Shown here in pieces: positions 510-14,623 of a DNA stretch of 64,000 nt. The notes beneath the pieces are model-generated. The model did no database searches and was not told where the DNA came from. It was given only the letters and a program-made list of their open reading frames with translations. Within the stretch, counting starts at the first letter, position 1. Each line of letters begins with the position of its first letter. Position numbers and translations under genes: made by a program. The stretch covers positions 1 through 64,000 of the forward strand of contig OMVT01000005.1 in assembly GCA_900314535.1 (NCBI GenBank). Direction: 5' to 3'. The DNA is from an uncultured Olsenella sp. (GTDB lineage: Bacteria > Actinomycetota > Coriobacteriia > Coriobacteriales > Atopobiaceae).

Positions 510-1721
510 TTAGCCAAGTAGCACGAGACATCCACTGTCAAAGGCACCTGGGAAAGGAAAAACCCGCTGTGTACCACCGAAGTCAATCTTGACGTGGGAA
601 GCATCAGCCCAGGTTACGACACCTTTCCCCATGGAGATATGCCTTACATAAGACCCAGTTTTGGGTTGCCTAGATCCGATTGGAACTATGCGTAAGCGTT
701 TTTGTCTTGAGGATGAGCTTGAAGTCTGTGCTTCTGAGTCTGGATGCGACTCCATCCATTTCAAGAGAGCTATAGGACTAGCCATCACTTCATCAGGGAT
801 ATCTCGAATGGCTGATTGAGAGTCAGGAGAGCTGTCGAAAGACAGAGGAAGCTTCAACTGTCGATCGTCAGGTACTTCAGATTCGTCGAGATCAGAGTTT
901 TCGAGTTCCCACTCAACATCGTCGATATCAAAATCATCGTCGTCATCATAACCCAGCGTCTTATCTTCAATGTAGTCATCCCCATACATGTCTACATAGA
1001 CGGACATCACCTTATCCGCCGCGCTATCTAACTCTTCACGGGGGATAAGCGGGAGATCGATTTTCGTGGAAACGTCCAGAGTATCAAGAATGCTATACAC
1101 GGCAGATGACCTAATGATGGGGTATTTATAATAGGGCCGTATCGACTCGAACATAAGTCCATCAAAGCAATCAACTGGACTATCCAAGGAGGTATTCGCC
1201 ACATGGATACGTGCGAGCTGTCCATGGTCGCTGTCGGAAAGAGAAAGCCAATCTGAAAGGTAGATGGCGTAACCATCATTTTGTTCAGGCTTGAGAAACG
1301 AGAGCATCAAGCTGTCTAGATGGCGGAACAGCACCACGCTCCAACGGGAGCCAAACTTGGAGAAGATGCGATGAATCGCGTAAGCCTCATCGCTACGAGC
1401 GTACCCAACATCTTCCATCGAGATGGCGTAAAAGGCAACAGCATCTGAGCCATGGGGGTAATCAGCCGCATCGAGGCTAAAGAGGTAGGAGCCTGTGCGA
1501 ATGGACGTGGTATGCACCACATCCAAATCATTGAGGATGCGATTTTTTGAAAGCAACGAAAAGACAAATGTCTTCGAAGGACAAGCATGCAGCTTAACGG
1601 GCATGTTCTTCTCGCAATAGCCAAGGTGCGAGAAGAAACAGATGCCCGCTTTATCAACCGGAAGAGAAAAAACGTCTTCAAGCCATGGATTTGAGTCGTA
1701 GAGAGTTAGTTCTACACCCAT
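510..1721 (-). CDS. Unknown 403-residue protein, last gene of the phosphorothioation-linked operon
   Basis: I do not recognise a named family. The start at 1721 (ATG) lies 6 nt past the stop of the 174-residue gene; a TTG three bases earlier is also possible. Three parts can be seen: an N-terminal mixed alpha/beta region of about 220 residues; a very acidic linker near residues 245-290 with runs of Asp and Glu; and a C-terminal segment (about 355-403) with the spacing His-x3-Gly-x-Gly-x-Val followed by a Val-x-Ile-x-Phe strand. That ending resembles the Tudor-like fold at the end of UvrD/PcrA helicases. Because it closes the restriction-side operon it may be a regulator, adaptor or effector of the defence system. 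No nuclease motif is obvious. Base composition is visibly more AT-rich than the core genome. Confidence 0.75.
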   Translation of the reverse strand: MGVELTLYDSNPWLEDVFSLPVDKAGICFFSHLGYCEKNMPVKLHACPSKTFVFSLLSKNRILNDLDVVHTTSIRTGSYLFSLDAADYPHGSDAVAFYAISMEDVGYARSDEAYAIHRIFSKFGSRWSVVLFRHLDSLMLSFLKPEQNDGYAIYLSDWLSLSDSDHGQLARIHVANTSLDSPVDCFDGLMFESIRPYYKYPIIRSSAVYSILDTLDVSTKIDLPLIPREELDSAADKVMSVYVDMYGDDYIEDKTLGYDDDDDFDIDDVEWELENSDLDESEVPDDRQLKLPLSFDSSPDSQSAIRDIPDEVMASPIALLKWMESHPDSEAQTSSSSSRQKRLRIVPIGSRQPKTGSYVRHISMGKGVVTWADASHVKIDFGGTQRVFPFPGAFDSGCLVLLG

Positions 1722-1727
1722 CAAGAG

Positions 1728-2252
1728 CTAGCCTAGGTTTTTGAGATCAATCTGGGGAGCATTGCCGCTCAGGTCATCATAAAACCTTTGCATGACATCC
1801 ATAGCACGTTCCAGGTAGTCCTCTGGAGCGTTTGCAGGGGCCTTCTCAACGAAGTCCTCGTACATCTGCTCGATGCCACCCCGCACATACGAATCAAAGA
1901 GCTCCATGTTGTTTTTAAGCTTTTCAGGCTCATCGTCGTTGGCATCATCCCGGAACGCTCGATCGATTCTCTCGGGTGCTTCGAGGTCAGTTGTCTGCTC
2001 GAGGAGCATTACGAGACGATAGAGGAACATCAGGTCAGCACGGCTTTTTGTCAGAACCTCGGTCAAAATATTTGTTGAGTCATTGCTTTCTCGATCAATG
2101 GGAGCAGTTCTGTTGTAGAGCAGCCCAAACACGGCACCGTTCATGTAGACGTCGATATTGCGCTCGTAAAGCCTTGCCTCTTTAACGAGGTACTTGGTAT
2201 AGGTGGCATGCTTACCTAGTAGAGAAATGTCGTGGTCAAACATGTCGGACAT
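1728..2252 (-). CDS. Unknown 174-residue helical protein coupled to the DndD-like ATPase
   Basis: The ATG overlaps the TAA stop of the DndD-like gene by one base (TAATG), so translation is probably coupled and the two proteins are likely made in fixed ratio. The sequence is mostly amphipathic helix, acidic, with no signal peptide, membrane segment or catalytic motif that I can see. It is not a convincing DndE, which is smaller and basic. Given its position it may be a partner subunit of the ATPase. Function unknown; the call as a real gene rests on the coupling, its codon use and its place in a gapless operon. Confidence 0.75.
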   Translation of the reverse strand: MSDMFDHDISLLGKHATYTKYLVKEARLYERNIDVYMNGAVFGLLYNRTAPIDRESNDSTNILTEVLTKSRADLMFLYRLVMLLEQTTDLEAPERIDRAFRDDANDDEPEKLKNNMELFDSYVRGGIEQMYEDFVEKAPANAPEDYLERAMDVMQRFYDDLSGNAPQIDLKNLG

Positions 2253-4237
2253 TACCCCTCCCTCTTGAGGACGGAGTATTCTTCGCTCCGCTTATCAAGC
2301 GCGTAGCTCGCGCCTAGACGATCTTGTAAAACAGGCCTTGCATAGACCCAGTCCTTGTTCATAACGAACATGATGACCTGCTCGGATGCTTCAGGAAGGA
2401 CGCGTGAGATGTTGGCAATGTGTCTCTCGTCAGTGTTAGAGAAGGGGGCATCCATAACAAGAGGATAGGGTTCCGAGGAGAGGTCATATTGTGTGTCGCC
2501 GGATTTTGCGACGACTTTCTCCTTTGCCAGGGAGACAAGTCCGGCTATAAAGGCAAAGTTCTTAACCCTGTTCAAGCCTTCGGATTCCCCAGTAAAGCGG
2601 GAGTTCTCACCGAGGTCGGTAATGAGCTGGACTTCATAGTTGGAGTCAATTACGACCTTTCTGTGGCCATGGTACATTTGGTTGAAGATGTCGTTAACGC
2701 GAGATTGTAGCCTCTCTCGTATGTCGCCCTCTTCTTCGGTGTACTCATCATTGAGCCACTTGGCAATGGTCTCTGCATACTGTATGTAAAGGAAAGTCTT
2801 CTTGTTCTTGGCGCTCGCCGAGGATGTCTTCGCGTATACGCTATTCAGGCGCTCAATCGTGGACTGAAGTTCACCAGATTCGCGAAGGATGGAGTCGCGT
2901 TTGTCTTGGGCCTTCTTAAGAGCCTTCTTTACGCCGTTGCGTGCGGTCTCGGTGCTGCTGAGATTGGGGAGTTGCTGGAGCCTCGCGCTTAGCAGTCCTA
3001 TTTGCTCGTCACCATCTTGTATCTGCTGAGTGGCAGAGAAGATGTTAGCAAGCCAGGATTGCATGCTCGCCAAAGTGCTCTCTTGATCTGTGGCAAAGCG
3101 AGAAAGCTCACCCTGGTAGTTTCTGACCGCGGTACCTATCGATTCGGGGGGACAATACCGCATCTCTTCCCTGACGTGTTCGACGGCCTCGGGATGCTCG
3201 GAGAACTTCAGACCGCATACGCAAATGCCTCGGGCGAGGATGTCTTCAAGCGTTGGACGGGTCAAGTCCTTGATGCCCTTGTCGTCAAGCTGGGCGTCCT
3301 TTAGGAGCTGCTCTGCACGGTCGATGAGAGGGGCGGAAAAGAAATGCATGGAGGATGAGCTGAAGCCCCGCTGCATGGCCGTGATGGTGCTTGCTCGAAG
3401 ACTAGAGGCAGCCCTGACCGACTTCTCATGCCTCTCTTTTTCCGCTTCGAGAGACTTAGATTGGCTGTTCTCTCGAAGTAGCTCGTCATACTGGTCCTTC
3501 TGGGTAGTAAGCTGCTCGATTTGGGAATTGCACTCTTTCAGCCGTTCGTCGTTAGCATCCAGGCGTTCCCTGGAGTCCTGTATTCTTGCAAGCGCCTCCT
3601 TCGCGCGCTTGTCGCCATCTTCGTCGAGCGAACCGTAGAGCTTGCCTAAAACGGACTTGCGCTTCGCCTTACTCCCAAGATGGTTGATGCCGTTCTCGAG
3701 GACGGTCAGACCAAGCAGGCCTTTGACCGAGTCCCTGAGATCACCGCGCGTGCTTACACTTGCCACGCGTTCGGTATCAAAGAAGAAGTAGCTGGAAAGG
3801 CCTTCGGGCAATATGGACTTGACAACGTTGTCTACCTGGTAGCTCTTGATGGGGTTTGTTTGCCCGTCCTTGTCTATGAAGGACATGGACACAGTGGGCT
3901 TCGACCCATGTATGTCGGCACCCGTTTTTGTGTATCTGCGCGTTCTGATGAGGGTGTAGTTAAGTCCACCGTGGATGAATTCGATTTGTACCTCTACATC
4001 TTCAGAGGACCCGTTCTGCATCTCGTTTGCAACGTCGTAATTTAGGAGGTCGTCAGGGTTGTCGAGCATGACCTTTTCGTAGAAACACCAGTTAAACGCC
4101 TGCAACAAGGTGGTCTTGCCATAGGTATTGTCCCCGAGTATCACAGTCACGTTCTTCTGGGGGTCAGTAGAAAAGGAGATAGACTGGTCGCCCCGGTACT
4201 GCCGGAAGTTGTGGAGCCTTAACGATTGAAGCAGCAT
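2252..4237 (-). CDS. DndD/SMC-like ATPase of the phosphorothioation-linked restriction operon
   Basis: This 661-residue protein has the layout of DndD, RecF and Rad50-type ATPases. An N-terminal Walker A (GDNTYGKT, residues 35-42) is followed by a long coiled coil (about 190-480) with a CxC pair near its tip (ICVCG) that may act as a zinc hook. The C-terminal half carries a signature-like helix and a Walker B with D-loop (VMDAPFSNTD). DndD homologues use ATP to act on DNA during phosphorothioation or its surveillance. Here the modification genes already include their own ATPase (sspC), so this one more likely serves the restriction arm. A strong GGAGGAA ribosome site lies just upstream, directly after the stop of the 56-residue gene. 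Confidence 0.85.
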   Translation of the reverse strand: MLLQSLRLHNFRQYRGDQSISFSTDPQKNVTVILGDNTYGKTTLLQAFNWCFYEKVMLDNPDDLLNYDVANEMQNGSSEDVEVQIEFIHGGLNYTLIRTRRYTKTGADIHGSKPTVSMSFIDKDGQTNPIKSYQVDNVVKSILPEGLSSYFFFDTERVASVSTRGDLRDSVKGLLGLTVLENGINHLGSKAKRKSVLGKLYGSLDEDGDKRAKEALARIQDSRERLDANDERLKECNSQIEQLTTQKDQYDELLRENSQSKSLEAEKERHEKSVRAASSLRASTITAMQRGFSSSSMHFFSAPLIDRAEQLLKDAQLDDKGIKDLTRPTLEDILARGICVCGLKFSEHPEAVEHVREEMRYCPPESIGTAVRNYQGELSRFATDQESTLASMQSWLANIFSATQQIQDGDEQIGLLSARLQQLPNLSSTETARNGVKKALKKAQDKRDSILRESGELQSTIERLNSVYAKTSSASAKNKKTFLYIQYAETIAKWLNDEYTEEEGDIRERLQSRVNDIFNQMYHGHRKVVIDSNYEVQLITDLGENSRFTGESEGLNRVKNFAFIAGLVSLAKEKVVAKSGDTQYDLSSEPYPLVMDAPFSNTDERHIANISRVLPEASEQVIMFVMNKDWVYARPVLQDRLGASYALDKRSEEYSVLKREG

Positions 4238-4246
4238 AACTTCCTC

Positions 4247-4417
4247 CTAGTAAGTCGCATCAGCGATGCTCATGATGGTCTTCCTTATGAGGTCAACCAT
4301 CTCGCCCGAACTTCTCTCGCGGGTATGGTCGTTTCGCCTCTCCGCCTGGAGAATCTCGTATTTCATCCTCTCGAGTTTCTGCGGGTTCAGGTCGGTTTCT
4401 GTGGCGTCTTTAGGCAT
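4247..4417 (-). CDS. 56-residue DNA-modification-associated small protein
   Basis: This small gene starts with ATG at 4417, overlaps the end of the helicase gene by 8 bases, and stops with TAG at 4247-4249, immediately before the ribosome site of the DndD-like ATPase gene. The product (begins MPKDATETDL, ends SIADATY) is charged and helical: a central Lys/Arg/Glu-rich helix with a heptad look, then a second helix. Small helical proteins of this size occur between helicase and ATPase genes in other phosphorothioation-type clusters and are annotated there only as modification-system-associated small proteins. It could bridge the helicase and the ATPase. Evidence for reality is the gapless operon fit, overlap coupling and the spacing of the next ribosome site; function is unknown. 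Confidence 0.7.
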   Translation of the reverse strand: MPKDATETDLNPQKLERMKYEILQAERRNDHTRERSSGEMVDLIRKTIMSIADATY

Positions 4418-6599
4418 AAGGCTCATCCTTTACGTCTTCTTCGGTAATTTCGAAGGCCTCTATGAGGCTTGAAATCAGTTGTTGAGATTCCGCGGGGTTT
4501 TCGGCGATAAGAGAGAAGTCCTTTATCCGGGTGACCTCTCTTATGGCCAGAGATTTTGAAGACTGCACGACGGTGGGAGGGTAAAGATCGATGTCTTCGG
4601 GAAGCATGGGAAGGGTCACGAAATCGTAGATGATCGCATAGTCCTTCCCTGGTGCTTTCCTAAGGACTCTCCCGCGGCGTTGCACATATTCCTTGGGATT
4701 TGTGCTGCTGGCAAGGATAAAGGCTTTCTCTATGCTGGGAATATTGACGCCTTCATCTAAGCATCTGATGGCCACGAGGGCCTGCATGTTCTTTCCGCTA
4801 GAGAACTCTTCTGTCAGAGTCTTTCTCTTCTCGGCGTTCTCGTTCGATGTGAACTGCGCCACTTTCATATGGAGATCATTGCCAAGCATTCGAGAGACGG
4901 CGTCTATCTGGCGGATGTCGCCCTCATCTGGTTGGCCTTCTATGTAGCCATCGTCCTGAATGGTGGTAGCGCCGCAGTAGACGAGCATATGGTTCTCGTA
5001 CGAGTGCGGGGTAATGACCTCTTTCAGTTTTCCAATCTTCGCATGCGCTCCAGCGATGATTCGGGCACGTTTAATGAGCAACATCTTCACGGAAGGCGGA
5101 AGGTCTGCTTTGCGTTTGGAGGAGGATGACGCTATCGCTTTAGATATCTGCTTAGATAGCTCTACATATCGTTCGAGCTCGTCCTCTTCAAGGCACACCA
5201 CGACAGGGTGGTAGTAGTAGGGGGTGAGCATACCGTTGTTAATCGCGTCTTCAAGAGAGTATTCAATGCACTTTGCACCGAAATACTCAAATATGGCCCG
5301 AGTACCATCCTCATCGCCGTATCTGTCAATTGTTGCAGACAGCGCAAGCCTGAAAGGGAATTGCTGCGGCAGGGAATCGAGCGCTCTAACGGTACCGATA
5401 TTATGAGCCTCGTCAACAACGATGAGGCAGTTGCCTCGAAGCTTCTGAATCTGCTCCTGCATGAAGGAGCTCTCGAATGTTGCATTGGTGGTCACGATAC
5501 AAAGGCGAGGTATCCCTCCGAATCTGAAGCCACCGATGGCCGTCTTTACTCGGTCCTTCCAGTTCTTCTGGGAAGAAGCGGAATAACATACTATTGGCTT
5601 GAGGCCGAAAGCGAGGATGTCCCCTTTCCACTGTTCCACGAGATGTTGGTACGGGCAAACGATGACAACCGCAAGGTTATGCTTGACGACATCAGAAAGG
5701 GCGCATATGGCAGCCAAGGCGGTATAGGTTTTGCCGGTACCGGTTGCCATGTCAAAAATCCCACGGAAGCCGTTGTCCTTCCAGTTGCTAATGGCCTGGT
5801 TCTGGTAATCCCTCAGAACCAGGTCTTGGGGGATGCGCGGAATTCCTTCTTCGGCCTGGCGACTATCACCCTGCGCGTAATCAGTTTCAGCGGCCGGATA
5901 GATAGCCAGATCCCCGAGGTTAATGCCATCGGCAATCTTGTATTTCTCGATGATGGCCTTTGAGACCTGCGGGAAGTCCTGCACGATGATGCCAGGCTCG
6001 TAGTCGCCCCACATTGCGTTGAAAGCAGACTCTTTATCTCTTACGCGATTGACGTCGTTTGACCAGGACGTGAACACGTCGATAGCCTCGTAGTTCCGAT
6101 GGAAAGCGTTGTCTGACTCGTTCATGGAACCAGAAAAGGCGATTACGTTGTCCGAGTCATCGTACATGAGCCCAAGCTTCTCGTGGAACATGCCGATTTC
6201 GCCGTCCGTTTCGAGGAAGGCTATCTTTATCGTCATCGCACCGGAAGAGATAAGGTTGGAAAGCAGATTGAGCCTGGCCTCCTCAAACTTACCCTCGGGT
6301 TGCCGCAGCTCGCGGATAAGGGCGTCGAGGATGATCTCATCCCGATGCTTATAGCCATCTTCGATGGCGTCGATGTCCTCCTGTGACAGCTTGGGCGAGG
6401 CCACGACATCGATTCGCCCGTGATTAAGCAGGAGTCCCTTGAGCCCCTCGGTTAGGCTGAGTAGTGCGGATGAGGAGAAAAAGCCGACGGCCCGTCGGTA
6501 GAGCACGGACCGAGCGAGGACGGGGGTATAGAAGTCGCGAACGACATCGCGCGACAGCGACCTATATTCCCTCTTGATGTCCAAGTCGGTAAAACTCAT
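4410..6599 (-). CDS. PLD-nuclease/DEAD-box helicase, phosphorothioation-linked restriction protein
   Basis: The predicted 729-residue protein joins two enzymes. Near residues 139-162 is a single phospholipase-D-type nuclease motif (HEK, then GSMNES). This is followed by a superfamily 2 helicase with Walker A ATGTGKT (285-291), DEAH box (396-399), an SAT motif and a motif VI ending RRGRVLRK. I chose ATG 6599: GAGGGG sits 7 nt upstream, a -10 box lies at 6631-6636, and the longer GTG start at 6671 falls inside a terminator hairpin. Proteins of this type are known beside DNA phosphorothioation genes as presumed restriction enzymes that translocate on and cut unmodified DNA. It heads the second transcriptional block of the island. 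Confidence 0.85.
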   Translation of the reverse strand: MSFTDLDIKREYRSLSRDVVRDFYTPVLARSVLYRRAVGFFSSSALLSLTEGLKGLLLNHGRIDVVASPKLSQEDIDAIEDGYKHRDEIILDALIRELRQPEGKFEEARLNLLSNLISSGAMTIKIAFLETDGEIGMFHEKLGLMYDDSDNVIAFSGSMNESDNAFHRNYEAIDVFTSWSNDVNRVRDKESAFNAMWGDYEPGIIVQDFPQVSKAIIEKYKIADGINLGDLAIYPAAETDYAQGDSRQAEEGIPRIPQDLVLRDYQNQAISNWKDNGFRGIFDMATGTGKTYTALAAICALSDVVKHNLAVVIVCPYQHLVEQWKGDILAFGLKPIVCYSASSQKNWKDRVKTAIGGFRFGGIPRLCIVTTNATFESSFMQEQIQKLRGNCLIVVDEAHNIGTVRALDSLPQQFPFRLALSATIDRYGDEDGTRAIFEYFGAKCIEYSLEDAINNGMLTPYYYHPVVVCLEEDELERYVELSKQISKAIASSSSKRKADLPPSVKMLLIKRARIIAGAHAKIGKLKEVITPHSYENHMLVYCGATTIQDDGYIEGQPDEGDIRQIDAVSRMLGNDLHMKVAQFTSNENAEKRKTLTEEFSSGKNMQALVAIRCLDEGVNIPSIEKAFILASSTNPKEYVQRRGRVLRKAPGKDYAIIYDFVTLPMLPEDIDLYPPTVVQSSKSLAIREVTRIKDFSLIAENPAESQQLISSLIEAFEITEEDVKDEPYA

Positions 6600-6630
6600 A
6601 AGATAGCCCCTCATTCTCACAGGCTCATCC

Positions 6631-6636
6631 ATTATA
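6631..6636 (-). promoter_or_regulatory. -10 box (TATAAT) of the restriction block
   Basis: A consensus TATAAT on the minus strand lies just after the terminator that follows sspA and about 32 nt before the chosen ATG of the helicase. No good -35 hexamer is visible at 16-18 nt, because that stretch is the right arm of the hairpin. The promoter may therefore be weak or activator-dependent. Confidence 0.55.
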
Positions 6637-6646
6637 CGACCCAAAA

Positions 6647-6680
6647 AGTCATCCGGTGACTCTATAGTCACCGGATGACT
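6647..6680 (-). terminator. Perfect 15-bp hairpin terminator between modification and restriction blocks
   Basis: Arms AGTCATCCGGTGACT and AGTCACCGGATGACT are perfectly complementary around a 4-base loop. On the minus strand the stem is followed directly by TTTTT, the layout of a Rho-independent terminator. It lies 47 nt after the sspA stop. As a DNA palindrome it could also be an operator for the following promoter. Confidence 0.8.
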
Positions 6681-6727
6681 GTGTTTGGCAAATGTTGAAG
6701 CAACAAAAGGCAGAGAGATTCAGGTCG

Positions 6728-7885
6728 TTAGTAAGTCGCCTCGATGATATCAAGAGCCCCCTTGAGCCTCATCATGTCTTCTTCCGTGGTCATCGTACTC
6801 ACGCTGAGGCGTACGGTGCCCGCAGGCAAGGTGCCTAGGAATCTGTGCGCATAGGGTGCGCACTGGATGCCGGAGCGTACGGCTATGCCGAACTGGCCGA
6901 GCACCATCTCGGCCTCGTCGGGGCTGTAGCCGCCGAAGAGGGCAGAGACGACGCCGATTCTGTCACACTCCATCTGGTCACCGACAACTTGGACAAATGC
7001 ATAAGATCGGAGCAAGGAGAGAAGCTCGTCGCGTTTTGCGTTCTCATCAGCATGGACGTGCTCGATTCCCCGCTCGAGGATCCAGTTGGTCGATGCCTTG
7101 AGGCCGGCAATCGCATAGGTGTTCTGGCTTCCAATCTCCTCCATCTGCACGATGTCGTCGGGAAGGTCCTGCTCAATGGAGTTGATGCCGTTACCGCCGA
7201 AGAAGACGGGCTCCAGCCGAGCTCCGCGCTTGCAGATGAATCCGCCGATGCCAAAGGGGCCGAGGAGCGTCTTATGGCCAGCGAACACGGCAAAGTCGAA
7301 AACGTCGCTCGCGAGCGGCAGGGGAAGAAGCCCGGCGGTCTGGCTCATGTCAATGACAGTCGTCGCTCCATAGGATTTTCCGAGGCGGCAGAGATCCTCT
7401 ACCGGGACAACGGCGCCGCATACGTTGCTTGCATGAGTCATCACGAGGAGACAAGGAGGCCGCTCCGCGAACTTTCGCTCTATCTCAGCAAAATCTGGTA
7501 GCAACGTCTCCTTGTCAAAGGGCAATACCCGCACATCAACGCCATGGACCTTGGCCAGGTGATGGATCGGGCGCGTTACTGCGTTGTGTTCGAAGGGGGT
7601 CACATAGACGGCATCCCCATCGCTCAGGCCAAGGCCGAGCAGTATGCGGTTGAGCGCGTCGGTGGCGGAGGCGGTGAAGACGACCTCGCTCGCGGGGCAG
7701 CCGTATAGCGCTCTCAGGTTGTCCTTCGCCTGCCGGGCTACGTTTCCGGCGGCAACAGCTAATGCGTTCCCACCGCGACCGATATTTCCCCCGGAGTTGC
7801 GGTAGAAGGAGTCGGCGAAATCGTAGACGCTCGCAGGCTTCGGGAAAGTCGTCGCCGCGTTGTCGAAGTATGCGATATCGCCCAT
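6728..7885 (-). CDS. sspA: Cysteine desulfurase, SspA-type sulfur donor
   Basis: This is a 385-residue pyridoxal-phosphate enzyme of aminotransferase class V. The cofactor lysine lies in GHKTLLG (K205) and the sulfur-carrying cysteine in IQCAPY (C342). It would take sulfur from L-cysteine as a persulfide and pass it to SspD for insertion into the DNA backbone. It begins two bases after the sspC stop and is the last gene of the modification block; a strong terminator follows. Its sequence style (short loop around the active cysteine, GNIGRGG near residue 36) is closer to SufS/CsdA than to IscS. Without the neighbours it could be taken for a housekeeping SufS, but the tight operon argues for a dedicated role. 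Confidence 0.88.
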   Translation of the reverse strand: MGDIAYFDNAATTFPKPASVYDFADSFYRNSGGNIGRGGNALAVAAGNVARQAKDNLRALYGCPASEVVFTASATDALNRILLGLGLSDGDAVYVTPFEHNAVTRPIHHLAKVHGVDVRVLPFDKETLLPDFAEIERKFAERPPCLLVMTHASNVCGAVVPVEDLCRLGKSYGATTVIDMSQTAGLLPLPLASDVFDFAVFAGHKTLLGPFGIGGFICKRGARLEPVFFGGNGINSIEQDLPDDIVQMEEIGSQNTYAIAGLKASTNWILERGIEHVHADENAKRDELLSLLRSYAFVQVVGDQMECDRIGVVSALFGGYSPDEAEMVLGQFGIAVRSGIQCAPYAHRFLGTLPAGTVRLSVSTMTTEEDMMRLKGALDIIEATY

Positions 7886-7887
7886 GG

Positions 7888-10800
7888 CTAGCAGAGCCCC
7901 CTCAGAACATCGAACACAACCTGGCGCTTCTCCTCGGGTGAGAGCGACCCGCCCATCTCGCTCAGACAGGCGATGAGCCCGTTCTTCAGGAGACGTGAAC
8001 GCCCGCTGGTCTTGACGGGGGCGAACGTCTTCTGCTGGCGGGAGCCATCGGGGGCGATGAACACGATTCCGAGCTGGTCGCCGTCGATGTCTTCGGGCTG
8101 TTCTGCAGTCCCCTCGACCTGCCGCTTCATGCCGGAGAGGATTCTCGGGAAGTCGTCGAAGCGCGCGTCGTTCCAGTCGTCCACACGGAGGGATGTCGCG
8201 GCCTTCGCGATTCTGCCGGCGGTGACCAGATCGTCGCCGCTTGCCGCCATGATTGCGTTGAGGATCTTTCGGTTTACCCCTGTGAACGAGCGAGAGTACA
8301 CGACGGGATGCTCCTCAAGCCAGTCCTTCAGAACCGATCCGAGGCTGGAGCCTTCGTGCGCGTTCGGCTCGAAAATGCCCATGATGGTGCTTGTGAGGCC
8401 TTTGGTGCAGTCCGAGAGGTAAGCGTCACAGTCGTCCTTCTCAGCAACTATTGCGGCAACAAGGGAAGCAGAGCCGACGGGCGAGCCGAAGATCCGTGGG
8501 AACTCGTCAAACAGGAGCACGTCGGCATCCGTATCGATGCGCCGGATGGCCCTGAAGAAGGCCGCTCGCGCAGCGGGGATTCGGCCCGCCTTCCCGGAAT
8601 GGGCATGGTCGTACTGGCATGTCCGGGTAACCTGCGGAAGGGCCGCGTACCAGAGCCTGATTGCCTCGGCGACTGAGCTGCGGTCGGAGCCGCTCTTGTC
8701 GCATTTGAAGGCGGCGGCGAGCGCATGCGTGTAGGACTCCATCTGAGGAGACCAGTTGAGCCTCGTGGCCCGGTAAGACTCAGGCCGTTTCGAGAGGTCG
8801 TCCAGCAGCGTTTCGCTCAGTGGCCTCTCTTCGCCATCGAGGGTGATCTTGATCTCGTTGCGGTAGCTTCTCAGGACATAGGCGATGTATATGGGGATGG
8901 GTCCTCGCCTCAGGCCAATGCCGTATTCGGGACCGGTGAGACTCTGGTAGAGGTCGGAAAACGGGGTGTCGTCTGCACGCTCGAGAAAGTCCCGAACGAT
9001 GCGTATGACGCTGGCGATTTCCTTGCTGGGGGTGCCTGGCTCATCGATTGCATCAGACAGGCTGCTTATGAGACCGGTCTTCTCGAGCGCGCTCCTGGCC
9101 ATAGAGGTCTCCTGACCGTTGCCAACGAAGCCGAGGCTAGGGGCCAGCGTAGGCGCACAAAGCGCTTTGAGAATCTTGGTACGGCTGCTGAAGGCGGTAC
9201 CCGTGAGCTCGTTCTTGTTGAGCGCCTCGTTGGTGATGCACGGAGTGTTGCCGTACGTCTTCTCGCAGAGTGCCGAGAGCTCGTCCGAGAGCTTGCGCTT
9301 GCGGGTAATGACCTTGCGCTGCCCGCCATCGATGAAGTAGAGAGTCTGCATGAGCTCAGGCTGGAAGAACCCCGCTATGTATCCGTTGACGATCTCGGCG
9401 TAGTCCTCGATGACGACCTCGTACTCCTCGGCAAGTGCGGCATCGCCCTTGGCCTCGTCTTTCAGTTGACGCGCCGCCTCGAGCTTGTAGATGGCGTCAT
9501 CCACCTTCTTGAATGATCTCGGATAAGCGACGACGGTCATGGGGGCACAAGAAACCGAGTCCTTGGCTACTGCCTTTAGGTCATGAACCTCATCGGCTGT
9601 CGAGCAGTAGACGGCGACGATCTGGCCGTCCCCATCCTTCTTGAGAATGGGCCCATCTTCGGGTTTCCATGACAAGAGCTCTTGCGCATCGACGAAGCCG
9701 CAATCGAAGTATCGGACGATGCTGTAGTCCTCGTTGTACCTGGAAGGGTAAAGAGCGCGCCTGCCAAGGTCGGAGTTGAGTATTTCAGCGCAGCTGAGCG
9801 AGTTGCGGAGGGCCTCGGAGCGATCGGCCACCTCCCTGTCGATGGGGACGCCGGTCGTCTCCTTGAGCTGGAGATATGAGTTGCTGCGCCTCAGGTAGAC
9901 TATGGAATCCTGGGCGACCAGGGCATCAATCGCGCCGGTCACTTCGTCCATTGGGAAGCCGCTATCGGTGAAGATGTCGGCGATGTTCTGCCGCGTCGGG
10001 GCCACGGCATCGAACTGCGCGACGGCATCGATGGCGGCGACCGTCTTGATGATCTTCGCCTCTAGGCTGTCGGACCCAACGTGCACGAGCGACGCCCGAG
10101 CAAGCTCGTAGACCTTGTGCAGCGGCGACGTATAGAGTTCCTTGCGAAGCAGTGGCTCGAAGTAGTCGTAGACGTAATCGGGGGTGACGAACATCTTGAT
10201 GTCACCGATGACGTTGCCGAGGGTATGCTCGCCCGCCGAGCAGATGAAGGTGAAGAGCGTGCGCTCGTTCTGAGCCACGCGCTCGGAGAGCCTGGGGAGG
10301 AGGTATGCGGTTATGGGGTGCAGCGGATAGCAGCCGAAGGTGACAAGACGCACCTCGTCCTCAGTGAACAAGTCGTTGGCAAGGTAGCGTGAGCCCAGCG
10401 TGCGGAGCTTGCGATCGTTTGCGCCGCCGCCATCCGAGAGCCAGCGATTCCAGGTCTCGGGATCTTTGTTGATGGCGGCTGACATGAGTTCGTAGTACTG
10501 CCCGGCGTCATCATGCATGACGATTTCTCCGAAGCGCCCGGAGACGCCACGCCAACCATCAACCTTCTCCTTGGGGAGCTTGGAGTCGATGTAGTTTGAC
10601 AGGCTCTTATGGCTGATGAGGAGCAGGTGCATCTGCTTGTCGATGGCACTCCTGTTGCATGCCTCGGCGAAATCTTGGAGCAGCCTGGTGTCTTCTACGG
10701 TGGCTTTGTCAAGGCTTGTTTCGAGGTACTTGCTGAACTCGTCGTATACGACGTACACGCCGCTGATGCCCGAATCAGAGAGCCGGTCTATCACCTTCTC

Positions 10801-11475
10801 GTAGACGTCGATGACGTCGGCTCCTTCGAGGGCATCGAAGGAGCTGCCGGAGGTGAGCTGAGGGTAGAGGCTTACAAAGGTCTCGTAAGTCTTCGTATCC
10901 ATGTTCTTGAGCTGGGTGATCATGGATTCGAAGGTCAGGCCCGAGGACTCCTCGAGCCTGCGAAGCGTCTCGGGGAAGTCGCTTTTCCAGCGCTCGATCG
11001 TGGCGATAGCGCCGTCGTAGTTCGTCTGGGGCATGACGCCGTCATAGCCGTTGGCGCGAAGCGAGTTGCGGAGCGCTGAAAGGAGGGAGTGGCGAAGGTC
11101 AGAGGTGCTGCCGTTGATAATCACGGGGAGGAGTCTGGCTCCGTCGGTCACGAAGTGTTCCAGCGTCTCGCCGAACCCCAGACCGCGATTGTAGTAGGCG
11201 TCGATGATTTTCTGGAAAAGGGAGGGGTCCTTGTCCCACATGGCTTCCAGGGCGGCGAGGACGACATGGGACTTGCCCTTGCCGTATGCGCCGACGAATA
11301 GCTTCGCTCGCTGGTTAGATGGCGCGACAACCGCGCTCAGGATCTCTTCTAGATAGCGGCAGACCGCCTCGGTAGGGATGAGGCCTTCGACCTTGCTCCT
11401 GTCCCCAAAGTCGTAATCGATGTTGACTGAAGTCTGGAAGTCCTGGTTGGGCACTATGAGTTCGTCGAGGTTCAC
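7888..11475 (-). CDS. sspC: SspC-type large P-loop ATPase of DNA phosphorothioation
   Basis: This 1195-residue protein carries a Walker A (GAYGKGKS, about residues 62-69) and a Walker B-like strand ending in YDEF (about 238-241). The rest is long and helical and without motifs I can name. In SspABCD systems, SspC is the ATPase that works with the DUF4007 nickase SspB and the sulfur-handling SspD. I prefer GTG at 11475, with AGGAG about 6 nt upstream inside the stop region of sspB; a longer ATG at 11517 would overlap sspB without a ribosome site. Similar large ATPases (BrxC, PglY) occur in BREX, but the DUF4007 and PAPS-reductase neighbours point to phosphorothioation. Confidence 0.82.
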   Translation of the reverse strand: MNLDELIVPNQDFQTSVNIDYDFGDRSKVEGLIPTEAVCRYLEEILSAVVAPSNQRAKLFVGAYGKGKSHVVLAALEAMWDKDPSLFQKIIDAYYNRGLGFGETLEHFVTDGARLLPVIINGSTSDLRHSLLSALRNSLRANGYDGVMPQTNYDGAIATIERWKSDFPETLRRLEESSGLTFESMITQLKNMDTKTYETFVSLYPQLTSGSSFDALEGADVIDVYEKVIDRLSDSGISGVYVVYDEFSKYLETSLDKATVEDTRLLQDFAEACNRSAIDKQMHLLLISHKSLSNYIDSKLPKEKVDGWRGVSGRFGEIVMHDDAGQYYELMSAAINKDPETWNRWLSDGGGANDRKLRTLGSRYLANDLFTEDEVRLVTFGCYPLHPITAYLLPRLSERVAQNERTLFTFICSAGEHTLGNVIGDIKMFVTPDYVYDYFEPLLRKELYTSPLHKVYELARASLVHVGSDSLEAKIIKTVAAIDAVAQFDAVAPTRQNIADIFTDSGFPMDEVTGAIDALVAQDSIVYLRRSNSYLQLKETTGVPIDREVADRSEALRNSLSCAEILNSDLGRRALYPSRYNEDYSIVRYFDCGFVDAQELLSWKPEDGPILKKDGDGQIVAVYCSTADEVHDLKAVAKDSVSCAPMTVVAYPRSFKKVDDAIYKLEAARQLKDEAKGDAALAEEYEVVIEDYAEIVNGYIAGFFQPELMQTLYFIDGGQRKVITRKRKLSDELSALCEKTYGNTPCITNEALNKNELTGTAFSSRTKILKALCAPTLAPSLGFVGNGQETSMARSALEKTGLISSLSDAIDEPGTPSKEIASVIRIVRDFLERADDTPFSDLYQSLTGPEYGIGLRRGPIPIYIAYVLRSYRNEIKITLDGEERPLSETLLDDLSKRPESYRATRLNWSPQMESYTHALAAAFKCDKSGSDRSSVAEAIRLWYAALPQVTRTCQYDHAHSGKAGRIPAARAAFFRAIRRIDTDADVLLFDEFPRIFGSPVGSASLVAAIVAEKDDCDAYLSDCTKGLTSTIMGIFEPNAHEGSSLGSVLKDWLEEHPVVYSRSFTGVNRKILNAIMAASGDDLVTAGRIAKAATSLRVDDWNDARFDDFPRILSGMKRQVEGTAEQPEDIDGDQLGIVFIAPDGSRQQKTFAPVKTSGRSRLLKNGLIACLSEMGGSLSPEEKRQVVFDVLRGLC

Positions 11476-11483
11476 GGGATCTC

Positions 11484-12398
11484 CTATCCGATTAGGTCGT
11501 AGTACCAGCGGAGGCACTCTTCTTTGGAGAGGTCTTCCGTGAGGATGCGCACCACGTCGAGTCCCGCGGTCCGGTTGATGCGAAGGTAGTCGTTGTTCTG
11601 CAGCTCATAGAGCTTGTCGAGGAGACCAACGGAGTCGAGATTGTATACGCGACCGGGAGAGAACGGGCCGTTGAGCAGCGTCTCGATGGGGATTTCTGAT
11701 TGTCGCTCGCTGTCATCGTCAAGGTGTTCCTGCATCGAGCAGATGGCGTAGAGGACGAGTATGGCGGGAAGTGAGTTGAGGTTAGGCGGGGTCTTGCGGA
11801 ACGTGCGATTGGAGCGGCTCTCAATATCAATGAGTCCGAGGTCGCTAAGCGGGCAGTCGATGACACTTTCCGGAGAGATGGGCTTGCCGTTCATGCGGTC
11901 GTGCGGCACGTAAGTGCCTATGATGCAGTTGAAGTCGGATTCCAGCGATGCCAGAGCGACGTCCTTACGGTCGTTATAGGTAAAGACATATCGCTCTAGC
12001 GCTCTTGTGAAGTCCTCGCGGCCGAAAACACCCATGTTGAATTCATTGAAGAAGAAATACCAGGCTGTCGCTTCTTCCTGTGCGGAGGCAAGGTTGCACT
12101 GAAGGGCTAAGAGAGTTCCGATTTCCTCGGTATAAGTGTCTCGCTCGAGGATGAGCTTACCGAGTTCCGTCAGGACATGTTCGTGCTTGCGTCCGTCGGC
12201 GTATCCGATAAGTCCCATGGCCTGCAACCAATAGCGCAGAGCGATGACCTGGTTGGCACCGAGGCCAAGTTCATCCATGGCCGTTTTACTGCTACTGGGC
12301 ATGAGCATCCGGTTGTCTTTGATAATGGCTTTAAGCCCTTTGCTGATCCAGCCCTTGCGGACGAAGAACGACTGGTGAGCCTTGAATCTCATCTGCAT
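11484..12398 (-). CDS. sspB: SspB-type DUF4007 protein, probable DNA nickase of phosphorothioation
   Basis: The 304-residue sequence opens with the DUF4007 signature: a Phe/His segment with FFVRKGWISKG, then an LGLGANQVIALRYWLQ helix. A winged-helix-like middle follows, and a C-terminal part with a YNLDSVGLLDKL segment. SspB of the Vibrio SspABCD system is reported as a site-specific nickase whose nick allows sulfur incorporation in one strand. It lies four bases after the sspD stop, so sspD, sspB and sspC are almost certainly cotranscribed. Catalytic residues of this family are not well enough known to me to check individually. Confidence 0.82.
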   Translation of the reverse strand: MQMRFKAHQSFFVRKGWISKGLKAIIKDNRMLMPSSSKTAMDELGLGANQVIALRYWLQAMGLIGYADGRKHEHVLTELGKLILERDTYTEEIGTLLALQCNLASAQEEATAWYFFFNEFNMGVFGREDFTRALERYVFTYNDRKDVALASLESDFNCIIGTYVPHDRMNGKPISPESVIDCPLSDLGLIDIESRSNRTFRKTPPNLNSLPAILVLYAICSMQEHLDDDSERQSEIPIETLLNGPFSPGRVYNLDSVGLLDKLYELQNNDYLRINRTAGLDVVRILTEDLSKEECLRWYYDLIG

Positions 12399-12402
12399 GG
12401 GC

Positions 12403-14118
12403 CTATCCCTCCTGGACTCTCAGGTACTTGCGCATGAGGCATCCGCCTTCCAGGTATTTGTCGGTTACGCACTGATGGCAGTGCACGCACTTAGCGGGAT
12501 CGATGTGGTAACCGCTGCCATTGATGGTGATCGCGTTAAAACGGCAGAGCGCCTCACACTTGAGGCACTGGCGGCAGGCGTTATATTTGACGACCTGGTA
12601 TTTGGCCATACGAAGAAGAGCCTCGCTGTCGGAGGTCTTCAGAATTCGCACCTTCGCCGCATACTCGTAGCCAGGCTGGGAGAACGGCATTACAGAGATG
12701 AGAGGCTCGTTGGTCCTGTGGTCAACGATGACGCTTTCGTGCAGAAGCGGCCGTCCGAGCCCCGGCGCGTAATCACCGATGGGTGTCATAAGTCCTACGA
12801 ACTCGTCCGAGTAAGGCCTCTCGAGAGAGAAGATCATGGCATTGTCATCCGTCGCGCAGTGGCTGGCCTCGACTTGAACCGTTTTGGCGGCTGCAACGCC
12901 ATTTCCGCCTTGCCGCGCCTTCCACTTACCAGTGTCAACATAGACCTCTGGGTCGGGTTTTCCGATTCTCCGAGCGAAGTCCACGAGGAATGTGCGCCAC
13001 CGTTCAGATTGCTCCGGCATGTAGATTTGCGAGAGGAACTGGGCCCGTGGGTTGTTGTTCGGGCACATCCAGCAGCCGACACGTTCATAGCCGAGTCGGT
13101 AGGCATCGTTGAAGTCGATGCCTTCGGAGAGGATGTAGAGCCAGACGTCACAGTCGTTCCAGTAGAAGATGGGCGAGGCGACCTTTTGTCTCTGAATCTT
13201 GACGGACTCCGCGCTGTCCTCTACACGATTGTACTTGCTTCGAGATACGGACTCGTTCTTGCGTATGCCATAGAAGGTAAGGATTGGCTCATCGCCAAAG
13301 AGCCCCTTGAACGCACGGGAAATGGGACCGGTCTTGAACATGGAGCAGCACCAGCGCATCGTGCGGGCTGGTGGCCCAATAACGTTTGCGACGTCGTAAA
13401 AGTCCTGCTCATAATTCTTTGCGACCTTGAATATCGCGAGCGGATGGTTGTCCCTAAAGCGTTTGGCATACTCGATTGTGCTCGGGAACTCAAGAGTGGT
13501 GTTGCCGAAGATATGTACAAGATATGGGTTGCTTAGAGCCCGCACGGCTAGATCGGCGGTGACTGTAGAGTCCTTACCGCCAGAGAACGATACGACAAGG
13601 TGCTCATCCGGATAACCCTCTGAAGCTTTAACGATGAAATCACTGGCTTCACGGACGAGAGCACCAAGGTGCTCTTTGTTGGCTTCGACGAAGGCGGTCT
13701 TGTAACGCTTGAACCCATCGTCAGAGTTTAAGGGTCCATATTCTTCAAGCTGTTTGCGTATGTCGTTGGGATCAGTGGCGAGGATAGTCGCCACCGATAT
13801 GTTGTTGGGCTTGCCATTGACATAGTATTTGCTGCCCACGGCCCACACGGAGTCGTCTTTGAAGGCAAGGGGCCTTCCGACCATCAACTCAAAAAGTAGC
13901 CGCTCCTCAGGAAAGACGGGCCTGATGTCAGCACAGAGATAGCCGGCCTCGCCGCCGCAGCGAGGGCAGGTAATTCGATTCTGGCCTGGTGTATGTATAA
14001 TAGGTATCCTGCAATCACTGCACCAATAGATAGCATGGGGTGCAACCTCGACGGTTCTGCTGCCACATTCAGGGCATACTTCGCTATCGGTGTGGCGATT
14101 GCATTTGACACAATACAT
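12403..14118 (-). CDS. sspD: SspD/DndC-like PAPS-reductase-family protein with zinc ribbons and a ferredoxin tail
   Basis: The start is ATG 14118, preceded by GGAG at 10 nt; longer in-frame starts run through a palindromic leader. The 571-residue product has two N-terminal zinc ribbons (CxxC...CxxC, about residues 2-60), an ATP-pyrophosphatase loop SGGKDS (179-184) and the DndC-type cysteines in WCCSMF and GCWMCPN. It ends with a ferredoxin-like tail containing two cysteine clusters (CRQCLKCEALC and CVHCHQC). The family activates DNA or sulfur by adenylation and transfers sulfur from the cysteine desulfurase, using an iron-sulfur centre. The extra ferredoxin-like tail could deliver electrons. 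It is the first gene of the modification block. Confidence 0.85.
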   Translation of the reverse strand: MYCVKCNRHTDSEVCPECGSRTVEVAPHAIYWCSDCRIPIIHTPGQNRITCPRCGGEAGYLCADIRPVFPEERLLFELMVGRPLAFKDDSVWAVGSKYYVNGKPNNISVATILATDPNDIRKQLEEYGPLNSDDGFKRYKTAFVEANKEHLGALVREASDFIVKASEGYPDEHLVVSFSGGKDSTVTADLAVRALSNPYLVHIFGNTTLEFPSTIEYAKRFRDNHPLAIFKVAKNYEQDFYDVANVIGPPARTMRWCCSMFKTGPISRAFKGLFGDEPILTFYGIRKNESVSRSKYNRVEDSAESVKIQRQKVASPIFYWNDCDVWLYILSEGIDFNDAYRLGYERVGCWMCPNNNPRAQFLSQIYMPEQSERWRTFLVDFARRIGKPDPEVYVDTGKWKARQGGNGVAAAKTVQVEASHCATDDNAMIFSLERPYSDEFVGLMTPIGDYAPGLGRPLLHESVIVDHRTNEPLISVMPFSQPGYEYAAKVRILKTSDSEALLRMAKYQVVKYNACRQCLKCEALCRFNAITINGSGYHIDPAKCVHCHQCVTDKYLEGGCLMRKYLRVQEG

Positions 14119-14145: not shown

Positions 14146-14169
14146 GCATTGGATGTCATCATCCAATGC
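14146..14169. promoter_or_regulatory. Perfect 10-bp palindrome in the sspD leader
   Basis: Arms GCATTGGATG and CATCCAATGC flank a 4-base centre, 28-51 bases upstream of the sspD start. There is no T-run after it, so it is not a typical terminator. It looks like a dimeric repressor site or a stabilising RNA hairpin. No regulator gene for it is evident in the island. Confidence 0.55.
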
Positions 14170-14235: not shown

Positions 14236-14241
14236 ATTATA
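14236..14241 (-). promoter_or_regulatory. Candidate -10 box of the sspDBCA block
   Basis: TATAAT on the minus strand about 118 nt before the sspD start would place the palindrome at 14146-14169 inside the transcript leader. A matching -35 hexamer is not convincing, so this is a tentative call. Confidence 0.4.
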
Positions 14242-14623
14242 ATAGCATACTGCCAAGAGAAATGCCATCAGGCAATCGGTGTGCCTGACAATGCATGTCA
14301 GCGGGAGATGCGGATAGGCCGCTCGCTGATTGCCGATATCCACCAATGAATAAGTGAATTGCCAATCCGCGGTTGAAAGCTGCAAAAGGCTAACCGATTA
14401 AGTCCACGGACTTCTTGAAAAACCATTTCGCTGCAGGAAGCTGAGGTTACCGTTTGCGGCGACGGATCCTCTGGGCGCGTCAGGCGCATGTACCATCGAC
14501 GAATCCGTTAGGGCCACGGCTGGGGGAGATTACCACGATGATGGATAAGGATTCCTGCACCTTGAGTATGGCGATGAGAACAGGACGCTAGAGTATGGTC
14601 GTCTCGACACGGAAGAGGCATTC

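Follow-up and report, generated by a model that had tools for sequence, protein, structure and literature searches.

Phosphorothioate-based modification is described in the literature on these systems with a limited set of restriction partners, namely DndFGH, DndI or Pbe for Dnd modification and SspE or SspFGH for Ssp modification (PMC8092258, PMC10853773 and PMC11662687 among the sources). SspFGH harms unmodified cells (PMC8092258), as does DndFGH (PMC11662687). For archaeal PbeABCD, plasmids with the complete pbe set and no modification genes showed neither notable toxicity nor an antiviral effect (PMC6459918). A revised naming of the Pbe proteins assigns PbeB to a small, rapidly evolving protein and PbeD to the cognate of DndE (PMC10853773).

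We analyzed a 64,000-nt stretch of DNA from an uncultured Olsenella sp. (hereafter, the window), in which the minus strand carries, in order, sspD, sspB, sspC, sspA, a 128-bp gap, pbeA, a 56-aa ORF, pbeC, a 174-aa ORF and a 404-aa ORF (Table 1). SspB, SspC, SspD and SspA were all detected with PADLOC and Pfam models, and both the PbeA helicase-nuclease and the PbeC CxC ATPase were detected past the gap. By gene content, the cluster combines sspDBCA, a predicted single-strand phosphorothioation module, with a Pbe module (pbeA-B-C-D) downstream of it. The naming in an earlier, sequence-only reading had implied a plain Ssp restriction block; the profile searches point to Pbe instead, and an identity as Ssp with SspE or SspFGH was dropped because the genes past the gap match Pbe models (PADLOC). 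PbeA also matched the NCBIfam model dnd_restrict_1, at a score below the cut-off of that model.

In common with the SspABCD-SspE and SspABCD-SspFGH systems, the window has SspB (DUF4007), SspC, an SspD-like sulfurtransferase and SspA; unlike them, its restriction genes are of the Pbe type, and its SspD, which contains a ferredoxin domain, is matched better by the PADLOC model of BrxP (1e-76) than by that of SspD (8e-11). It shares with the haloarchaeal DndCDEA-PbeABCD system (PMC6459918) the PbeA and PbeC families and, by position, candidates for a small PbeB-like ORF and the DndE-type protein, whereas its modification module is Ssp rather than Dnd and it has an additional 404-aa protein. Ssp genes adjoin Pbe genes in the window and in eleven other genomes (the nine with tight junctions described below, G065 and G466) from at least two bacterial groups, and a limited search of the literature on these systems found no description of this pairing. 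With this pairing, it can be asked experimentally whether single-strand phosphorothioation is recognized by Pbe.

Table 1. Coordinates of genes and candidate signals of the ssp-pbe cluster in the window
Feature	Position	Strand	Description and basis
404-aa protein	510..1724	-	without any family match
pbeD candidate	1728..2252	-	174 aa; DndE-cognate position; conserved in 10 relatives
pbeC	2252..4237	-	ABC ATPase with CxC hook (CVC in the protein); PADLOC PbeC 2e-119
pbeB (probable)	4247..4417	-	56-aa ORF overlapping the end of pbeA; named after PMC10853773
pbeA	4410..6599	-	PLD-type (HKD) nuclease fused to SF2 helicase; PADLOC PbeA 3e-243; Pfam ResIII, PLDc_2
GAGGGG, pbeA ribosome-binding site	6607..6612	-	sequence
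TATAAT, candidate -10 of pbe promoter	6631..6636	-	exact match; predicted start near 6624
T run TTTTT	6643..6647	-	first T pairs in the stem; GGG next
Intrinsic-terminator hairpin	6647..6680	-	15-bp perfect stem, 4-nt loop
sspA	6728..7885	-	cysteine desulfurase; PADLOC SspA 2e-31; Pfam Aminotran_5
sspC	7888..11517	-	P-loop ATPase; PADLOC SspC 3e-107
sspB	11484..12398	-	DUF4007; PADLOC SspB 2e-54; Pfam DUF4007 7e-74
sspD	12403..14118	-	PAPS-reductase-type sulfurtransferase with ferredoxin domain; start at MYCVKC, from relatives
10-bp perfect inverted repeat	14146..14169	-	GCATTGGATG-ATGA-CATCCAATGC; sspD leader
Candidate extended -10 of ssp promoter, TGC-TATTAT	14239..14244	-	promoter scan; similar TGC-TATxxx in G298, G245 and G267

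Counterparts of the 56-aa ORF, similar in length and at the same position, were present in five related loci (L004, L005, L019, L020 and L021). Neither this ORF nor the 174-aa ORF had a family match in PADLOC, Pfam or NCBIfam, and their identification as PbeB and PbeD is based on position and conservation. The 56-aa ORF is probably PbeB and is likely to have been missed by annotation. Homologues of the 404-aa protein, 23-28% identical, were found in L004, L005, G466, G661 and G710 and were not found in G298, G236, G763, G748 and G768. Among the relatives compared, it was thus seen only beside the Pbe subtype of the window, and it may be a subtype-specific effector or regulator.

The stem-loop in the 128-bp gap, AGTCATCCGGTGACT-ATAG-AGTCACCGGATGACT, begins 47 nt past the sspA stop codon (6728), and all 15 positions of its arms are paired, eight of them as G-C pairs. 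Its folding energy was -32.1 kcal/mol (z = -7.4), a value equaled by none of 200 shuffled sequences. Within 15 kb there is no other perfect 15-bp inverted repeat, and the hairpin is present as a single copy in the genome. The two elements of an intrinsic terminator, a stem-loop and a U-rich tract, are both present, the latter being short (UUUUU followed by GGG). We compared the hairpin with others in 204 kb of the same genome (the window and 140 kb of contig C69), in which 19 perfect stems (11 bp or longer, loops of 3-8 nt) were observed, versus 0-2 in first-order simulations; long perfect stems are therefore real and common in this host. Five host hairpins with a T-rich tail are located 20-29 nt past co-directional stop codons; their arms span 11-16 bp and their tails are short (for example, TTTCGG and TCTTTGG). 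With a d'Aubenton-Carafa-type score, the sspA hairpin reached 28.9, compared with 4.5-36 for these five host hairpins and -4.4 for its own opposite strand.

Because both score and form lie within the host range, the interpretation of the hairpin as an ordinary host intrinsic terminator acting in the ssp direction is well supported, and the perfect 15-bp stem with TTTTT that had been proposed as a terminator after sspA is confirmed as a feature of the sequence. It resembles the other intrinsic terminators of the host in its long perfect stem, a loop of 4-8 nt, a short T tail and a position about 20-50 nt past a stop codon. It differs from them in that the gene behind it has the same direction and a coupled function, and in that TATAAT follows at once. 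Since the T run is just five nucleotides long and is followed by GGG, read-through may be substantial. Neither the exact hairpin nor sspD was found in viral contigs, and a search of the junction DNA against plasmids gave no match.

An exact TATAAT is expected by chance 0.003 times (at the window rate) to 0.015 times (at the local composition) in the 47 nt between the stem and the ATG of pbeA. The best -35 hexamer among those 14-20 nt upstream matched TTGACA at 3/6 positions, with a spacer of 18 nt, inside the stem, and TATAAT is not preceded by a TG extension. A consensus promoter scan (at least 9/12 matches) did not list TATAAT because no -35 exceeds 3/6 and no TG is present. The fresh promoter suggested by the sequence-only reading thus has an exact -10 and neither a -35 at 16-18 nt nor an extended -10; a separate pbe promoter is plausible, no more, and, if real, would be weak or assisted, with its -35 region lying inside the stem. 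Terminator and promoter are in themselves ordinary. The GAGGGG and the ATG of the helicase are both present, and the position of the ATG (6599) is confirmed by all close relatives, which begin at the same M-S/G-F/L motif. An ORF called from the first GTG would begin at 6671, within the hairpin, so automatic annotation may be wrong at pbeA.

We compared the junction with that of related clusters. In nine relatives with the same gene order (G478/L004, G298/L020, G236/L021, G710/L054, G661/L055, G763/L056, G748/L057, G768/L058 and G479/L059), the pbeA start lies 8-20 bp past the sspA stop with no hairpin between them, as counted by eye on printed sequences, versus 128 bp in the window. A small ORF of about 100 codons lies between sspA and pbeA in G065 (L019). 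The pbe genes of G466 (L042) are convergent with the ssp genes, so that pbe cannot depend on the ssp promoter there. The usual state would appear to be one operon containing sspA and pbeA. Consequently, the proposal that the modification block ends before the restriction block starts likely applies to the window and does not describe a general trait; the split of ssp from pbe by a terminator was seen in the window genome only.

Sequence comparisons indicate that the ssp and pbe modules of the window are of different ancestry. Compared with G298 and G236, the Ssp proteins of the window are 61-77% identical and PbeC merely 27-29%, whereas compared with G478, G466, G661 and G710, SspC is 35-38% identical and PbeC 47-49%. 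In a tree of concatenated SspB-C-A, the window was grouped with G298 and G236 (support 100/100), and in a tree of concatenated PbeA-C-D, with G478, G710, G661 and G466 (support 100/100); the swapped groupings were rejected (p-AU 6.6e-10 and 1.3e-57). The GC content falls from 0.596 in sspA to 0.522 in pbeA (genome near 0.60), being 0.54-0.60 across ssp and 0.48-0.53 across pbe, with the step at the 128-bp gap. In G267 (L041), the same ssp type is followed by different effector genes starting 22 bp past sspA, and in a Treponema plasmid (L039), yet other genes for a helicase, an ATPase and a PLD protein begin 11 bp past the sspA of another ssp module. Joining at the 3΄ end of sspA is thus recurrent, and the terminator of the window is located at this position. 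The set in G267 (L041, 11519-15954), which encodes a 573-aa protein, a probable HATPase-type protein and a probable PLD-type protein, is a different candidate restriction set.

The terminator would accordingly mark a module-swap joint at which one presumed operon became two units. Identity to the nearest ssp and pbe relatives is only about 50-77%, too low for the exact joint or the direction of the swap to be read. Other genomes, such as those with tight junctions, may likewise have arisen by swaps and yet have gained no terminator, so that the swap need not have caused the split, and as the split was seen in one genome, it is by inference that we name the swap as its cause.

We consider it fairly probable that the arrangement comprises a terminator for ssp and a separate start for pbe and arose by the joining of a pbe module from a different lineage. 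In this explanation, the hairpin would end the ssp transcript in vivo 47 nt past sspA, and the pbe genes would be transcribed from their own start, probably at TATAAT (6636-6631), which in the absence of a -35 would be weak or in need of help. A stop directly upstream of the -10 would also shield the pbe promoter from ssp transcription running over it. The Pbe module of the other lineage would have been joined to the ssp module at the sspA 3΄ end, giving the present arrangement, whereas relatives without such a join look like one continuous operon. The order in which the modules arrived, and whether the terminator was brought by a module or formed at the joint, belong to what we infer. The same arrangement might instead reflect a leaky terminator, an attenuator at which most ssp transcripts would stop and a part would be read into pbe, TATAAT being a chance occurrence; the hairpin would then set a low restriction-to-modification ratio within one operon. 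The short T run ending in GGG, a TATAAT without a -35, and nine tight-junction relatives that all resemble one operon are consistent with this possibility. However, chance would place an exact TATAAT, here suitably spaced from a good ribosome site, just 0.003-0.015 times, and the hairpin ranks toward the upper end of the host terminators by score; we regard attenuation as possible but rather doubtful. The gap might also represent a mobile repeat or a decayed small gene between sspA and pbeA, given that it is about 110 bp longer than in the relatives and that the small ORF of G065 is at the same place; with no second copy of the gap in the genome or in two congeners, and no ORF recognized within it, we consider this highly improbable.

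The sequence-only reading held that the split allows DNA to be protected before the nuclease appears, and the toxicity of SspFGH (PMC8092258) and DndFGH (PMC11662687) without modification indicates that timing can matter in phosphorothioate systems. However, PbeABCD was harmless and had no activity in archaea when modification was missing (PMC6459918), nine relatives are without an ssp-pbe split, and the gene order itself already places modification before restriction. Extending the harmlessness of unmodified Pbe from archaea to the bacterial, Ssp-linked Pbe is an extrapolation; on balance, the protective purpose found no support and appears improbable.

The same reading had suggested that the stem doubles as an operator, in which case a dimeric regulator bound over the -35 region would activate or repress pbe. 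The 34-bp palindrome has its center near position -40 relative to the predicted start, the lack of a -35 would fit a pbe promoter that depends on an activator, and control of dnd is known to use palindromes bound by DndB (PMC4507180). Against this, apart from one lone half, no second site within two mismatches was found in the genome; the stem contains no DndB box (TACG-N10-CGTA) and is unlike the palindrome of the sspD leader. Moreover, similar long perfect stems at other host stops are the usual terminators of this genome and explain the palindrome without an operator. A single site would be compatible with a purely local regulator, which may act at the stem, and yet the operator function is not borne out by these comparisons, and we consider it very unlikely.

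A wider interpretation is that Ssp serves as a platform, with restriction modules of various kinds (several Pbe subtypes, HATPase/PLD sets and others) being exchanged directly behind sspA, that such a swap can split the operon into two separately controlled units, and that the stem is both the ssp terminator and the site of a pbe-activating regulator; in this complete form, we give it a slim chance. The joint is of interest as a single fixed position at which modules for phosphorothioate modification and for restriction recombine and at which the mode of co-expression can change.

We also compared the sspD leaders of the window, L020, L021, L040 and L041. The likeness between the terminator stem (CATCCGGTG) and the sspD leader motif (CATCCAATG), 7/9, is about at chance level (near 0.3 by our own estimate) and was set aside. 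The 10-mer TATAATGGAT, common to the pbeA and sspD leaders, was dropped as a shared promoter because it is the overlapping TGC-TATTAT that has similar ssp -10 elements in the relatives, and the match is probably due to chance. The inverted repeat of the window leader has a longer equivalent in G298, a 17-bp perfect inverted repeat with the same TTGGAT-N6-ATCCAA core, and the leaders of G236 and G267 carry (A)ACATCCAATG. This repeat may be a candidate operator of the ssp operon.
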